Source of the DNA: Methanothrix sp.
Lineage (GTDB): Archaea; Halobacteriota; Methanosarcinia; Methanotrichales; Methanotrichaceae
Length of the DNA stretch: 40,030 nucleotides
Direction: 5' to 3'
Assembly: GCF_024518575.1 (NCBI RefSeq)
Contig: NZ_JANIHG010000012.1
Span: 1-40,030, forward strand
Shown here piece after piece: positions 29,619 through 37,756 of this stretch. The notes under the pieces are model-generated. The model had not been told where the DNA came from. It ran no database searches and saw only the letters and a program-made list of their open reading frames with translations. Position 1 is the stretch's first letter. Each line of letters begins with the position of its first letter. The position numbers and the translations under genes were made by a program.

Positions 29619-30941
29619 ATGCTCGAAACGAATCTCATGTGCCCTCCGGGCTGGGTATCGCGCATGAAGGCAAATCACCTTCCAAATAGACCACAAGCTG
29701 TTCCCGCTCTGTTTGGGAGAGCATTTTTGCTGCTGATCCTCCTCACATCAGCGGCATCCTCCATGGGTGTGGTTGATGTCGGTAACATCTCACACTCGGA
29801 TGTTATCATGTACGTGAGCAACGACAATCCTCGTCACTACGTCCAGGGCGCGATACATGTTCCGCGAGCAGAATTCGTCGCCGACGGCAGGCTGCGCTCT
29901 GTCAGGGAGATCTGCGAGATACTTGGATCACATGGCCTGACAAGAAACGATACTGTCGTCGTCTACGGGAGCTGCATGGAGTGCGGCGATCCGACATACA
30001 TCTGCTGGCTGCTGAGCTATCTTGGGCAGGAGGATGTCAAGGTGCTCGAGATCGGGGAGATTGAGGCCAACATGAGCGAGAGCCCGTCGATCAGACCTCC
30101 CGCAAACTACACCCCTGAGCTGAGACCGGAACTCCTCGCCACATATGATTATGTTAAGAGCGGCGTTGCACAGATCGTGGATGCGAGAAGCTCAGATGAG
30201 TTCCAGGCTGCGCACATCCCCGGAGCGGTGAACATAGAATCGTCATCTCTCCTTAGCAATGGCAGATTGAAGAACGCTAGTGAGCTCGGTTCCCTTTTCA
30301 ATCTCGACCTGGGAAAACCGGTGGTTGTTTACAGCCTGAACGGCGGACAGGCATCGTTGGTCTGGTTCGCCCTCAAGATCCTGGGATACGATGCGAGGCT
30401 CTACACGTGGCTGGACTGGCTTGATAACCAGCCAGAGCTCGGAATGGAGCTCTCAGATCTCAGAGCAGATGTGAGCCCGGAGCGGATGGTCAGGATAACC
30501 GCCAGGTTCTCTGAGAGCATGAAAAACGAAAGCATGAATGTGATGGGGTGCGTCACATGCGAGCCCATAACGGTATACACCGGCGGCCTAAGCAGGGATA
30601 AGAGCACCGGCGTTAGGCTCGGAAACTATACATCGCCCGGGAGAAAGGTCGTGAACGTGATCGGCGCTTCGGAGACCAACACGGCTGGCCCAGTCGAGGC
30701 AGGGTCTGCTGCCGATATTGTGGCTGTTGTAACAGACAGCTCTGATAAAGAGATAAAAAGGATAATGATGCATCCAGAATCAGCATATGTTTACACAGGT
30801 ACCTGGGACGCATCTGGCGTTCCCGCAGGGATATACAACCTGAGCGTTGAGCTCTCAGCGTGGGGGATCACCAAGCGTTTCGATAAACGCATCCCCGTGG
30901 AGATACAGGCTGAGAGGTATAGAAAGCTCGGAAGATTCTGA
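29619..30941 (+). CDS. Secreted tandem-rhodanese protein with C-terminal beta domain
   Basis: 440 residues. A hydrophobic signal segment (FGRAFLLLILLTSAASS, about 32-48) points to export; Met16 (29664) may be the true start. Rhodanese domain 1 (about 50-150) has RHYVQGAIHVPRAEF and a Cys-bearing active loop GSCMECGDPTY (Cys119, Cys122). Domain 2 (about 170-280) has VDARSSDEFQAAHIPGAVNI, but its loop reads YSLNGGQASLVW with no cysteine, so it should be inactive. From about 290 a VTCEP segment leads into an Ig-like beta domain (PAGIYNLSVELSAWG). The next gene, a mini-thioredoxin, starts 9 bases after its stop. Role in outside sulfur transfer is inferred. Confidence 0.85.
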   Translation: MLETNLMCPPGWVSRMKANHLPNRPQAVPALFGRAFLLLILLTSAASSMGVVDVGNISHSDVIMYVSNDNPRHYVQGAIHVPRAEFVADGRLRSVREICEILGSHGLTRNDTVVVYGSCMECGDPTYICWLLSYLGQEDVKVLEIGEIEANMSESPSIRPPANYTPELRPELLATYDYVKSGVAQIVDARSSDEFQAAHIPGAVNIESSSLLSNGRLKNASELGSLFNLDLGKPVVVYSLNGGQASLVWFALKILGYDARLYTWLDWLDNQPELGMELSDLRADVSPERMVRITARFSESMKNESMNVMGCVTCEPITVYTGGLSRDKSTGVRLGNYTSPGRKVVNVIGASETNTAGPVEAGSAADIVAVVTDSSDKEIKRIMMHPESAYVYTGTWDASGVPAGIYNLSVELSAWGITKRFDKRIPVEIQAERYRKLGRF

Positions 30942-30949
30942 TCGTAGGG

Positions 30950-31192
30950 GTGGCACGATTGAAGATAGAGGTTCTCGGCACAGGATGTGCCAAATGCAAG
31001 GGCCTGGAGAAGAATGTACGCCAGGCGGTTAAGGAGCTGGGCATAGATGCAGAGATAGTCAAGGTGGACAGCATCATGGAGATAATGGAGCGCGGGGTGA
31101 TGATGACCCCGGCGCTGTGCATCGATGGTGAGACGGTTGCTGTTGGCCGCGTTCTGAGCGTGGAGGAGATCAAGGGCCTGCTGAGGGGATGA
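30950..31192 (+). CDS. Small thioredoxin-like redox protein (redox-active disulfide type)
   Basis: 80 residues. KIEVLGTGCAKCKGLEKNV has the redox pair Cys13 and Cys16, and MMTPALCIDG contains the cis-proline before the last strands, so it is a compact thioredoxin fold of the methanogen MTH895 type. It probably works with the rhodanese protein upstream (9-base gap), though it has no signal peptide and would stay inside the cell. GTG 30950 is one start; TTG 30959 has a better-spaced GGGGTGG site and would give 77 residues. Its 3-prime end overlaps the opposite-strand methyltransferase relic. Confidence 0.88.
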   Translation: MARLKIEVLGTGCAKCKGLEKNVRQAVKELGIDAEIVKVDSIMEIMERGVMMTPALCIDGETVAVGRVLSVEEIKGLLRG

Positions 31193-34391: not shown

Positions 34392-34560
34392 GATGCAGAG
34401 TGAGGATGCATATTTAATATTCCTTTCTCTGCCGGGGGCCTGTCCGAATAAGATAAAAGCCAGAGCTGAGTATAAGGTTACTTCAATGAAATTTGGAGAG
34501 GTGATGCCGGATGACATCCGGATCTTTGATCTCTGTTTTATCAAGCATACCCCTCTTCAG

Positions 34561-34755
34561 CTAGAACGATTCTTCTGCGAATATACCAGGCATAGATCAG
34601 CTTTTTCTTCATTTGAAGACTTTATACGCTGGTATAACGATAGACCACATGGAAGCTTGGACTTAGAAACGAATTGAGACTCTGAAATGGCTTTTATGCG
34701 AAAAATGCCTTTAGAAGCCTATTTCGCAATCGCAAATAGGTTGTTAGGGTTGTGA
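34561..34755 (+). pseudogene. C-terminal remnant of a DDE (rve-type) transposase
   Basis: The frame reads LERFFCEYTRHRSAFSSFED, FIRWYNDRPHGSLDLETN, stop, then EMAFMRKMPLEAYFAIANRL and a natural-looking end at TGA 34753. The R-x-SAFSSFEDFI-WYNxRPHGSL block is the end of integrase-like archaeal transposases. Restoring ERIETPEMAF needs one base removed and one added around 34668-34684, so two small indels have hit it. The catalytic D, D and most of the gene are absent. It differs from the transposase tail at 1-229. Confidence 0.8.
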
Positions 34756-35056: not shown

Positions 35057-35713
35057 TCAAACGCGAGGGGCCTGATGATGCCAGACTCTTCTCATTCCAT
35101 CTGGAGCCGTCTCGAGGATGATGCTGTAGCTGCCCTTCGCGTTGCCCACGTTGATCCTCATGCTGCCCTTGCCGAGCTGCAGATCCTCGTCGATCGTGAG
35201 ACTGATGTTGCCAACAAGAGCTTCAGCCTCTTCCCCAGCTCTGGCCTCTCTGAACCTGATCCCGGCCAGCTCCGCATCTATTCTGGTTATATTTCCCGAT
35301 CGCGTGAGAGCAATCCCTCTCAGCTGGTAAACATCCTGCGCGAGCCTGAGAACGCCTCTGTATGTGATGTTGCCTCTGCTGATCTCCGCCTGTATCTCCT
35401 CCAGGCTCATGTTCGATGAGAGCAGCTCCCTCGCTCTTGCCGGATCCACCTCCCTCATGCCCTCGATCCAGATGCTCAGCACGGAGGATATGTTTTCGCT
35501 CAGGGCGAAACCGCGGTAATGGAGCATCGGGATCATGCAGCCCTCCTGCATACACATCCCATGCCGCAGCTCGTCCAGCTCCTGCGGAGGATCCGGTGGA
35601 GGCATATGCGGAGGTGCATCCATACTCAGATGCGCGCCTGAGAAGGAGATTCCATAGGATGAGCCGATAACAATGAGTCCCACGATCAGGGCCAATGCCA
35701 GTTTGTGCGTCAA
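35057..35713 (-). CDS. Secreted sequon-rich protein of unknown function
   Basis: 218 residues with a signal peptide (LALALIVGLIVIGSSYG). A Pro-rich, metal-friendly N-terminus (HLSMDAPPHMPPPDPP, HGMCMQEGCM) is followed by a helical part containing NMSLEEIQAEISRGNITYRG, similar in style to the repeats of the neighbouring protein at 35865. Five N-x-S/T sequons (NIS, NMS, NIT, NIT, NIS) fit a glycosylated outside protein. TTG 35713 appears to be the start because the signal peptide begins right after it. Family not recognised. Confidence 0.7.
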   Translation of the reverse strand: MTHKLALALIVGLIVIGSSYGISFSGAHLSMDAPPHMPPPDPPQELDELRHGMCMQEGCMIPMLHYRGFALSENISSVLSIWIEGMREVDPARARELLSSNMSLEEIQAEISRGNITYRGVLRLAQDVYQLRGIALTRSGNITRIDAELAGIRFREARAGEEAEALVGNISLTIDEDLQLGKGSMRINVGNAKGSYSIILETAPDGMRRVWHHQAPRV

Positions 35714-35864
35714 TCATACCACGCCCAGATGCTCCGGCTGAGATGTACAGATCTACTGCAGGTACATGGATAAATATGCAATGTGAGACGCAAGAAATAA
35801 ATGTTACCAGGATTGCTGGCCTGCCGAAGGCCAGCCGATCCTGCAAGGGAACCCCATATCATAG

Positions 35865-36581
35865 TCATCTTTGCATCTTTCCGTAGCCCATGCCTCTCTG
35901 ACCCTGAGCTCCGCCCATGGGCCAGTAGGGGCACTCAGTGTATCCTGGACCCCATCCCCTTATCTCCGATAGGGTTTTGTTGTCCATCTCTGCTATCTTC
36001 TTCTCTCTCAACTCCCTGATCTCCGCCAACGTCATGTTCTCCAGCTCAGCCCTCTTCTGCTCCCTCAGCTCTCTGATCTCCGCCAATGTCATGTTGTCGA
36101 GCTCCTCCTGGGCGACATCATCCATGAGCATCCAGAGCCCTCCGAATGGAGCAATGCCGAGGCCACGATCTCCATCAAGACCGCGGCCGAACCCTCGCGC
36201 TCCGGACATCGGACCCTGAGCTCCGCCCATGGGCCAGTAGGGGCACTCAGTGTATCCTGGACCCCATCCCCTTATCTCCGATAGGGTTTTGTTGTCCATC
36301 TCTGCTATCTTCTTCTCTCTCAACTCCCTGATCTCCGCCAATGTCATGTTCTCCAGCTCAGCCCTCTTCTGCTCCCTCAGCTCTCTGATCTCCGCCAATG
36401 TCATGTTGTCGAGCTCCTCCTGCGTGAGGTCATCCATAAGGAGGCCCAAGCCACCTGGTCCTACCTCTGGACCACATCCACGATCTTCGAATCTGCAGTT
36501 CATGCAATCATGCATGGACATCGCTGGCACAGCAAGAAGTGCTGCGAGCGCCAGCACACCCATAATCTTCAGTCCTGACAC
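35865..36581 (-). CDS. Secreted protein with nested 19-residue sequon repeats
   Basis: 238 residues from GTG 36581, which has GAGGTGAT three bases upstream; an open extension to 36716 lacks a signal and is dropped. A signal peptide (IMGVLALAALLAVPAMS) leads to a Cys-bearing segment (HDCMNCRFEDRGCG). Then a 19-residue helical unit (NMTLAEIRELREQKRAELE) occurs three times, the third cut short as NKTLSEIRGWGPGY, followed by ECPYWPMGGAQG. The whole 104-residue module is duplicated. Every unit has an N-glycosylation sequon: Asn59, 78, 97, 163, 182, 201. Function unknown. It lies between the membrane regulator and another secreted protein on the same strand. Confidence 0.75.
   Translation of the reverse strand: MSGLKIMGVLALAALLAVPAMSMHDCMNCRFEDRGCGPEVGPGGLGLLMDDLTQEELDNMTLAEIRELREQKRAELENMTLAEIRELREKKIAEMDNKTLSEIRGWGPGYTECPYWPMGGAQGPMSGARGFGRGLDGDRGLGIAPFGGLWMLMDDVAQEELDNMTLAEIRELREQKRAELENMTLAEIRELREKKIAEMDNKTLSEIRGWGPGYTECPYWPMGGAQGQRGMGYGKMQR
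35902..36425 (-). repeat. 312-base tandem duplication inside the sequon-repeat gene
   Basis: The stretch from 35902 to about 36113 is nearly identical to that from 36214 to about 36425, with a fixed offset of 312 bases (104 codons); I see one silent C/T change at 36030 versus 36342. The parts between the matched stretches differ, so the copies are diverging outside the helical repeats or were partly homogenised. Confidence 0.85.
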
Positions 36582-36685
36582 ATCATCACCTCGTCCTTTC
36601 GGACAGGATCTGCTCTGGCTGAACGATATAAAAGAGGCATGCAGGACGAACGTTCTTTTGAAGTTCTTTTTTGAGATCAGAATGT

Positions 36686-37756
36686 TCAGGATTGTTCTTT
36701 TCTTGAAACAAACCACTCTGCTATCTCTATAACGTTTGTTCTACCCCATTCTCTCTTTTTTATCAGCTTTCTCCTCTCCAGAGAGTTCAGAATGCCACTC
36801 AGAGACGACTTCGGTATGCCGGTCTCGTACCTAAGATCTGCCTGGGTCATCCTCCCGCTCTTCTTCAGAAGCGTCTCTACGACAGCTCTCTCTCGGCTTG
36901 TCAGCGTCTCGATCACCGCGGCCATCTCCTTCGTGATCTCTATCGGCTCATAGCCCGGAATGAATGAGCTTCTCATGGGCTCATCTACATTCAAATCAAC
37001 ACCCAGTGTGCCATCGGGCATTTCACTGCCATCAGAAGCGCTGTCAGAGCTGAGCGATCCAGCCGGTTCTCCCCCTGGCGTGGCTGGATGGCCGGTCGCC
37101 TGCGGCTCAGATCGCGATGCCATCTCTCCATGCGACTCCATCCGTCTTCTCAGGATCCAGAAGGCAGTGCCACATGCGATGAGTATCAGAGCAGCTCCCA
37201 CTGCAAAATACGCCTGGTTCTTCCTTGCTGGCGGAAGAGATGCATTGATGGATGAGACGTTCGAGACCGTCAAGAGCGGCTGTCTGTATTCGACCACTAC
37301 AGAAGGATCGATGAGATCGTATCCCTGAAGATCGACAGCTAACGACTGGTTTGTGGATGATACAAGATAGCCAATACCCTCTGAAAGGCTTATGCTGCTG
37401 AGCATCGCGTCCCCTGGAAGATAGAGCGTCATGCTGTACCGTTCATACGATCCACGCAATTGTATCTGGAGGGTCCATGCATCTCCAGCCTTAGATGTGA
37501 GCGCGTTTGTGAGAGCATACAGCTGAGATGTGGAGTTATCGTAGCTGTACTGGGATGACTTCAGAAATGAAAGCCCCTCAAGGCTATCCGCATATCCGGT
37601 TATGAGCGCCTTTCCAGTCCAGTCGAGGTAAACGTTCAGAACGAGAGACCTGTTCTCATCAGCTGACAGAGCAGCAGTGCTCATTACGAGCAGAAATAGA
37701 AGGCAAAGCCAGAGGGCCTTCACAGCTCTGATCAACAGCCCGTACATTCGATTCAT
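36686..37756 (-). CDS. Membrane-anchored winged-helix transcription regulator
   Basis: 356 residues. A signal/first membrane segment (ALWLCLLFLLVMSTAALS, 14-31) precedes an outside beta-rich domain (32-180, with several sequons). A second membrane segment (AYFAVGAALILIACGTAFWIL, 182-202) follows, then a disordered linker. The C-terminal winged helix at about 285-350 (SRERAVVETLLKKSGRMTQA, LRYETGIPKSSLSGILNSLE, RRKLIKKREWGRTNVIE) lies inside the cell. This is the layout of archaeal one-component membrane sensors. The next genes on the same strand encode secreted sequon-rich proteins, so it may control them; that is inference. Confidence 0.85.
   Translation of the reverse strand: MNRMYGLLIRAVKALWLCLLFLLVMSTAALSADENRSLVLNVYLDWTGKALITGYADSLEGLSFLKSSQYSYDNSTSQLYALTNALTSKAGDAWTLQIQLRGSYERYSMTLYLPGDAMLSSISLSEGIGYLVSSTNQSLAVDLQGYDLIDPSVVVEYRQPLLTVSNVSSINASLPPARKNQAYFAVGAALILIACGTAFWILRRRMESHGEMASRSEPQATGHPATPGGEPAGSLSSDSASDGSEMPDGTLGVDLNVDEPMRSSFIPGYEPIEITKEMAAVIETLTSRERAVVETLLKKSGRMTQADLRYETGIPKSSLSGILNSLERRKLIKKREWGRTNVIEIAEWFVSRKEQS

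Follow-up and report, generated by a model that had tools for sequence, protein, structure and literature searches.

The window analysed here is a stretch of 40,030 nucleotides from a Methanothrix genome (contig NZ_JANIHG010000012.1). It carries three genes on the same strand, called REG, P2 and P3 below, which were found where the initial annotation had placed them (Table 1). That annotation had described a regulator with an outside domain and two exported proteins rich in sequons, and these descriptions agree with the present analysis. According to sequence, profile and hydropathy, the REG chain unites a DNA-binding domain, a membrane helix and an outside domain, in a predicted topology where a signal-peptide-like start is followed by the outside region, the membrane helix and a cytosolic winged helix. 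Both P2 and P3 start with signal-peptide-like segments.

Table 1. Position of the genes, domains and putative control elements of the REG-P2-P3 locus, in window coordinates.
Feature	Position	Strand	Basis or remark
REG, membrane-anchored winged-helix regulator, 356 aa, ATG start	36686..37756	-	sequence, profile
REG signal-peptide-like N-terminus, about residues 1-31	37664..37756	-	cleavage site by eye; hydropathy
REG outside (sensor) domain, about residues 32-178, predicted all-beta sandwich	37223..37663	-	predicted structure
REG membrane helix, about residues 182-204	37145..37213	-	by eye, hydropathy
REG winged helix DUF7343, residues 286-345	36722..36901	-	E 3.2e-14, 53 bits, curated cut-off 27.6
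P2 promoter element ACGTTCG-N18-TATCGTTC around TATA-like stretch	36621..36653	-	end 39 nt from P2 start codon
P2, exported helical-repeat protein, 238 aa, GTG start	35865..36581	-	
P2 internal tandem duplication, one copy	36209..36440	-	97% identity, spacing 312 nt
P2 internal tandem duplication, other copy	35897..36128	-	97% identity, spacing 312 nt
Inverted repeat between P2 and P3, conserved	35808..35843	.	kept in six species; one pair changed on both sides
TATA-like stretch GCATATTTATCC before P3	35768..35779	-	identical in six species; putative promoter
P3, exported protein, 218 aa, TTG start	35057..35713	-	
P3 conserved domain, about residues 63-202, predicted 8-stranded barrel with two-helix insert carrying NMSLEEI	35108..35527	-	predicted structure

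The DNA-binding domain of REG was assigned by a Pfam search to DUF7343 (PF24034), entered there as a domain of unknown function, and is connected to the membrane helix by a linker. The order of the parts, outside domain first and winged helix last, presumably differs from that of the archaeal regulator ArnR. Searches of solved structures by sequence matched nothing firm. The model of the sensor domain (152 aa, 63 alignment rows, mean pLDDT 87, pTM 0.78) adopts an all-beta fold with one short helix, and the fold search returned 8 OST entries first, led by the luminal domains of Ost1/ribophorin I (Z 12.2, rmsd 4.7, 142 aligned), followed by M1 peptidases at Z about 9. At most this points to a likeness to Ost1 in predicted fold, and it does not imply common descent or function.

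The style N-M-S/T-L-x-E-I, which the initial annotation had noticed in both exported proteins, is real: P2 contains four NMTLAEI and two NKTLSEI segments and P3 a single NMSLEEI. P2 holds six N-x-S/T sequons against a shuffle mean of 0.42, a count inflated by its own repeats, and P3 holds five against 0.69; in neither case did any of 2000 composition shuffles reach the observed number. The five sequons of REG compare with a mean of 2.1 (p 0.04). The two halves of P2 are nearly identical, and 19-residue repeats of the NMTLAEIRELR type are present in both. The corresponding DNA copies, each of which includes a 57-nt repeat, are still 97% identical over 232 nt at a distance of 312 nt, and the duplication is therefore recent. 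As judged by length, there is one half in G042 and G043 and there are two in G044-G046 (the G042 and G046 sequences were read). The P3 model (197 aa, 61 rows, pLDDT 83, pTM 0.67) places the NMSLEEI segment on the two-helix insert of the predicted barrel. At this site the pattern S/T-x-x-E/D/Q is present in 52 of the 61 alignment rows and the sequon in 47, so that a helix cap would explain it at least as well as glycosylation. The eight-stranded model resembles the Cap15, fHbp and GID4 barrels with Z up to 12.3 (reached by Cap15, rmsd 2.6, 97 aligned), and many unrelated barrels score close by; these structural matches tell about predicted fold, not about function. Matches of P3 to CsgH (E 0.07-0.09) and of P2 to Ribosomal_L12_N were taken as chance.

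The inverted repeat between P2 and P3 was also considered as RNA. In the alignment, changes on both sides concern 1 of 48 predicted pairs, with a covariation term of +0.78, and given this low proportion an RNA structure is not claimed. An Rfam scan at gathering scores returned only a tRNA, and the promoter/terminator scan relied on bacterial models, which are not informative for archaea.

The initial annotation had proposed that the trio be followed in other Methanothrix genomes, and REG, P2 and P3 are indeed found together in all six genomes of the genus. At the family level, REG is matched in 50 of the 50 genomes searched (in G047 over the sensor part only). Taking the best locus per genome, a REG locus was present in the stretches read for 49 genomes, and 45 of these provide at least 1.5 kb downstream. 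P3 lies within 4 kb after REG in 40 of these 45 usable genomes, the complete trio is assembled in 22, and in 17 REG and P3 are accompanied by a sensor domain that is secreted as a separate protein; one genome has P2 only and four have neither partner. Similarly, 75 loci of titled records were collected with a REG alignment, and 68 of them hold a full REG in the ORF calls. A P3 gene on the same strand follows within 4 kb in 57 of these 68, ANME-1 included, two loci end too soon, and nine have no P3 within 4 kb despite sufficient room. Many of the named REG loci belong to Methanophagales/ANME-1. Among 392 genomes of the phylum, the sensor model matched 44, the P3 model 47 and both models 42, in counts that are not independent of one another because the genomes are related. 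These matches fall in families f1, f9, f4 and f36 (sensor only), with one weak match in f17 (P3 only); no genome of family f2 matched either model.

On the basis of this REG-P3 order, the surface-sensing module suggested by the initial annotation stands as a conserved regulatory module, its sensing role, in which the outside domain may perceive P2 or P3, being a matter of suggestion. The same annotation had set against its proposal any relatives in which the genes are regularly apart. None are apart in the genus, and elsewhere in the family separation occurs in part. P2, P3 and the sensor copy are on a different contig from REG in G048 and G049 (genus g11). In genus g8, the series P2-P3-ATPase-Ig protein-MacB (G009) or P3-ATPase-Ig protein-MacB (G010) lies apart from the REG locus, and P2 and/or P3 genes lie away from REG in G014. 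G016 contains REG copies without partners. G003 displays REG-P3-ATPase-Ig protein-MacB-P2-P3-sensor on a single strand, and in G371, from a further family, REG, P3, a 175-aa gene, the ATPase, the Ig-type protein and MacB are collinear. In ANME-1, P3 is often located 86 nt after REG, and no P2 was labelled in the titled REG loci. The flanking genes vary there (P-type ATPase, RNA-methyltransferase-like and others), and it is consequently the REG-P3 pair itself that is kept.

Three genes encode the transporter that appears in these clusters: the first specifies an ABC ATPase, the middle one a protein that has a part outside the cell, and the last a MacB_PCD/FtsX permease. Both this transporter and the secreted sensor copy are located outside the window, and neither they nor the promoter element described below figure in the initial annotation. 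The transporter genes are directly upstream of REG in G042, G044, G045 and G046. In G043 they are on a different contig from REG, as they are in the window genome, where they occupy G000 C35 and match the HMMs built here at E 3.1e-208 and 5.9e-105. Further examples in the vicinity of REG or P3 are provided by G003 and G027 and by loci L178, L198 and L211, and the MacB permease was labelled in 6 of the 75 titled loci. Pfam confirmed the MacB_PCD and FtsX permease in L091 and L098 and the ABC ATPase in L091. As in MacB-type transporters, a permease with these two domains is linked to a separate ATPase. Unlike MacB with MacA, however, no MacA adaptor was recognised: the middle gene yields no Pfam match in two Methanothrix-side loci (L091 and L147) and Ig-like matches in two ANME-1-side loci (CARDB/NEW3 in L178, NEW3 in L198). 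A small gene and a MazE-like gene precede MacB in part of the family only, and are absent at the genus and ANME-1 MacB promoters viewed.

The initial annotation had named DNA binding upstream of 36581 and of 35713 as a check. The first region contains a conserved element (36621-36653), which is met again ahead of the MacB operon, whereas the second gave no site at two mismatches or fewer in the genus genomes scanned. In the REG-P2 gap of six species, ACGTTCG-N18-TATCGTTC is arranged around a TATA-like TTTTATAT, and the MacB operon promoter of four of those six species has the same boxes with the same spacing. The 15-base pattern is noisy in the genus at two mismatches or fewer (47 sites against 23 for the reversed pattern), and zero-mismatch sites alone were used. 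This strict form gives 12 sites in the six genus genomes, one before P2 and one before the MacB operon in each. It was this genome-wide search that brought up the MacB-operon sites in G043 and in the window genome, which are located on other contigs. The promoters of REG and P3 themselves are devoid of the element in the genus.

The layout is shared by the P2 promoters of the other genera read and by the MacB promoter of L178; in L198 a weaker version is found ahead of P3. A wider pattern, TTCGTTCNG-N8-TTTTNTATCGTTC, produced at two mismatches or fewer 124 sites in 42 of the 50 family genomes, and its reversed version none. The target of a site was defined as the longest ORF starting within 420 nt, and 118 sites were examined (the six others are G007:C226, G012:C30, G034:C85, G037:C93, G037:C379 and G039:C151). 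Genes of the module, of the MacB operon or of exported-looking proteins follow 112 of these 118. The targets comprise 54 P2-labelled genes, 13 ABC ATPases, 12 small genes, 5 P3 genes, 7 members of one exported family (GETLDLGPA-type), 21 other genes with a hydrophobic N-terminus and 4 others, two sites having none. The P2 profile also catches relatives sharing mainly the signal peptide; accordingly, N-x-S/T-L-x-E-I is present in 30 of the 54 P2-labelled targets, the 24 others sharing the signal peptide and other features. The ATPase and small-gene sites lead in 23 of 25 cases into the ATPase with the Ig-type protein and/or MacB, one of the remaining two running off the contig end after the ATPase and the other (L374, G001) showing no transporter. 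Apart from these 25, 85 of 91 targets satisfy a crude criterion for a hydrophobic N-terminus, one to which 268 of 569 background ORFs also conform. Because P2 promoters served as the source of the wider pattern, and the MacB promoters of the genus and two from ANME-1 had been inspected beforehand, its P2 sites in the family are to some extent circular. This applies less to the MacB operons of the remaining genera and to the additional exported families, which the search recovered independently.

The P2 genes of G048, G049, G009 and G014, genomes in which P2 and/or P3 are separated from REG, still carry the element. Eight of the 50 family genomes have no site at two mismatches or fewer, among them five of genus g8 (G008, G010, G011, G013 and G015), and seven of the eight possess REG. 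In the 60 genomes of family f2, the pattern at three mismatches or fewer gave 26 sites (one of them at two) against 33 for its reverse.

The element can be followed into ANME-1, which corresponds to family f9, as indicated by site coordinates that agree with those in titled records (for example G241:C124:6979 and L167, ANME-1-THS). A site at two mismatches or fewer is present in 25 of 51 genomes. All 25 are within the 31 genomes with P3 (Fisher 3.7e-9) and 23 are within the 28 with REG (Fisher 1.2e-7), both values ignoring shared ancestry; REG was not found in the two others, of completeness 85 and 81. At three mismatches or fewer there is real background, with 68 sites against 19 reversed. 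With this threshold, a site precedes P3 in 26 of the non-Methanothrix titled loci and ends exactly 30 nt from the start codon in 17 of them. A variant element, read by eye in G371, also ends 30 nt before P3. The MacB-type ATPase is preceded by a site in L178 (0 mismatches) and in L211 (3 mismatches). In ANME-1 the element mostly precedes P3 and tracks REG and P3.

The gene order with its conservation, the element with its targets and the co-occurrence of the element with REG, all directly observed, are best explained if REG acts as a membrane-anchored one-component regulator and governs an envelope regulon through the shared promoter element, a reading to which a probability of about two in three is given. 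The N-terminal beta-sandwich would lie outside the cell, a single helix would cross the membrane, and the C-terminal winged helix, inside, would bind the paired CGTTC boxes on either side of the TATA box. REG is the likely binder because it is the only DNA-binding gene seen beside the element in both Methanothrix and ANME-1, and because the two co-occur. The sites would control P2 and, in trans, the MacB-type transporter operon in Methanothrix, and mostly P3 in ANME-1, with MacB in the two loci seen. As the element covers the TATA region, bound REG could block or assist the basal factors, in repression or activation. P3, a small secreted barrel by prediction, and the secreted sensor copies of many relatives seem placed to feed back on the outside domain. 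An outside condition would in this manner be sensed and the exported proteins and transporter adjusted, as in an envelope-response regulon.

The composition of the targets provides a hint about the signal. Methionine makes up 9.6% of the mature parts of P2-labelled targets (52 proteins), 5.1% of other exported targets (26) and 5.2% of P3 (5), compared with 2.2% for a background of 68 exported-looking ORFs. The first two groups, but not P3, also have elevated cysteine, and the p-values of this comparison, made among paralogs, are overstated. Such Met-rich targets hint at a metal or oxidant signal, folding stress being also possible. A soft-metal or oxidant response, in which exported Met/Cys-rich proteins would sequester copper-like metals or scavenge oxidant while MacB took on export or repair, is compatible with the regulon and is itself a speculative proposal, less probable than its opposite. 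Two element targets are exported-looking ferredoxins, CbiM and CbiQ genes adjoin P3 in G042, and 3 of 18 P2 proteins weakly match Metal_resist (PF13801; best E 9.4e-4), although the P2 of the window is not among the three.

Folding stress leads to a second proposal, equally doubtful and equally compatible with the regulon. CpxA/CpxR/CpxP and Spy/ZraP combine outside sensing, control of exported helical stress proteins and possible feedback by an exported partner. The REG system would be analogous in its outside sensing, its exported helical proteins and its possible exported feedback partner, with the difference that CpxA/CpxR/CpxP is a bacterial two-component kinase system and REG one protein. 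In a Cpx-like circuit, P2 or P3 would be a chaperone-like feedback inhibitor of the sensor, as CpxP is, and the secreted sensor copy a decoy. The secreted copies found with REG and P3 in 17 of 45 family genomes and the Ig-like partner of the transporter in some relatives are consistent with it, as are the LTQEE/NMTLxEI helices of P2, which resemble the Spy/CpxP style. This last likeness, weakly seconded by the Metal_resist matches, is one of style and does not by itself imply family membership, and no P2 was labelled in ANME-1 loci.

It is unlikely that another transcription factor binds the element and that REG, P2 and P3 are neighbours for other reasons. The two ANME-1 genomes with the element and no detected REG, the seven family genomes with REG and no site at two mismatches or fewer, and the absence of the element from REG's own promoter in the genus point in that direction. 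Against them stand the position of REG as sole DNA-binding gene seen next to the element in both groups, the many loci where the site is located after the REG stop codon and ahead of the following gene, and the fact that the two genes seen before MacB, the small one and the MazE-like one, were encountered in part of the family only. Ordinary neighbouring genes with a chance resemblance are highly improbable: the likeness of P2 and P3 in a short motif is weak, but the order is conserved across distant families and the shared element has a control of zero.

The proposed regulation of an envelope regulon by REG has a precedent. ArnR/ArnR1 of Sulfolobus acidocaldarius is a membrane-bound one-component transcription regulator (PMC6396743). 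REG resembles it as an archaeal membrane-bound one-component regulator, with surface-structure genes as predicted targets; the comparison is made by description, and the targets of ArnR differ in being archaellum and pilus promoters (PMC6396743). Membrane-bound one-component regulators are therefore already known in archaea, and the promoter element and its predicted regulon are new here. Among open-licence PMC papers, no full text was found that names DUF7343, and no title or abstract start that treats REG, DUF7343 or the element.

A membrane-spanning switch, exported proteins and a transporter together suggest a cell-surface sensing system. Archaeal sensing of surface trouble is little known, and a candidate sensor, a predicted DNA site and likely targets are now named in two ecologically central groups, the acetate-using methanogens and ANME-1, so that the circuit is directly testable. 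A fuller picture, put forward tentatively and with less confidence than the regulon itself, is that of an archaeal envelope-stress regulon of Methanothrix and ANME-1 in which one membrane-spanning protein would sense the outside and bind DNA directly, would be tuned by a secreted barrel and secreted sensor copies, and would control a MacB-type transporter and fast-evolving Met-rich exported proteins, possibly in the service of the sheath or of the soft-metal/redox state of the space beneath.

The proposed envelope regulon common to these methanogens and the methane-eating ANME-1 provides new candidates, and a sheath link is not claimed. Sheath proteins are reported also from Methanomicrobia and some Thermofilales, as against sensor or P3 matches in f1, f9, f4, f36 and f17. 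A sheath gene cluster was looked for in G046 (622-762 kb), and the only paralog cluster found there reads, as judged from its repeats, as a CRISPR array taken for ORFs. At two mismatches or fewer this genome has three sites, one ahead of P2, one ahead of the MacB operon and one ahead of an exported protein of 192 aa, and no sheath gene was seen behind any of them.

Downstream of P3, the second of the two predicted exported proteins encoded with the membrane-anchored winged-helix regulator REG, the end of an open reading frame (Table) resembles a transposase or integrase remnant, as judged from its motif; a Pfam search of this segment gave no match. Because the MacB operon of the same genome lies on a contig other than that of REG, P2 and P3, a rearrangement is possible.

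Within the trio, P2 contains a tandem duplication, and the number of its halves, judged from protein length, varies among the six genus members. The gap between P2 and P3 holds a conserved inverted repeat.

The promoter element also precedes two genes for ferredoxin-like proteins, for which the Pfam comparison was confined to the L427 protein, and genes for exported-looking proteins with repeated K/R/P-S-M-M-D/G-type peptides (at L380, L384, L298, L371 and others), which form an unnamed Met/Cys-rich set.

Table. Coordinates of the additional features
Feature	Location	Strand	Remarks
Rhodanese-like protein, weak FlgD_ig-like end, then small thioredoxin-like gene	window 29619-31192	+	
ORF end	window 34540-34677	+	RWYNDRPHGSLD; P3 downstream side
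Inverted repeat, P2-P3 gap	window 35808-35843		conserved across six species
P2 tandem duplication	window 35897-36440	-	spacing 312 nt; 97% identity between copies
Two-cluster ferredoxin-like protein gene, exported-looking	L379:3159-3413	-	promoter element upstream, 2 mismatches
Two-cluster ferredoxin-like protein gene, exported-looking	L427:4283-4546	+	promoter element upstream, 2 mismatches

Further REG-like genes were encountered. Locus L112 (genome G016) carries three consecutive REG paralogs with other genes between them, downstream of which no P2 or P3 label was found, and at L178 the 3' end of a second REG-like winged-helix gene, just before position 1090 (+), lies directly 5' of the promoter element and a MacB-type ATPase gene. 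Elsewhere, a gene similar to the rhodanese-like one of the window is also present in G046.
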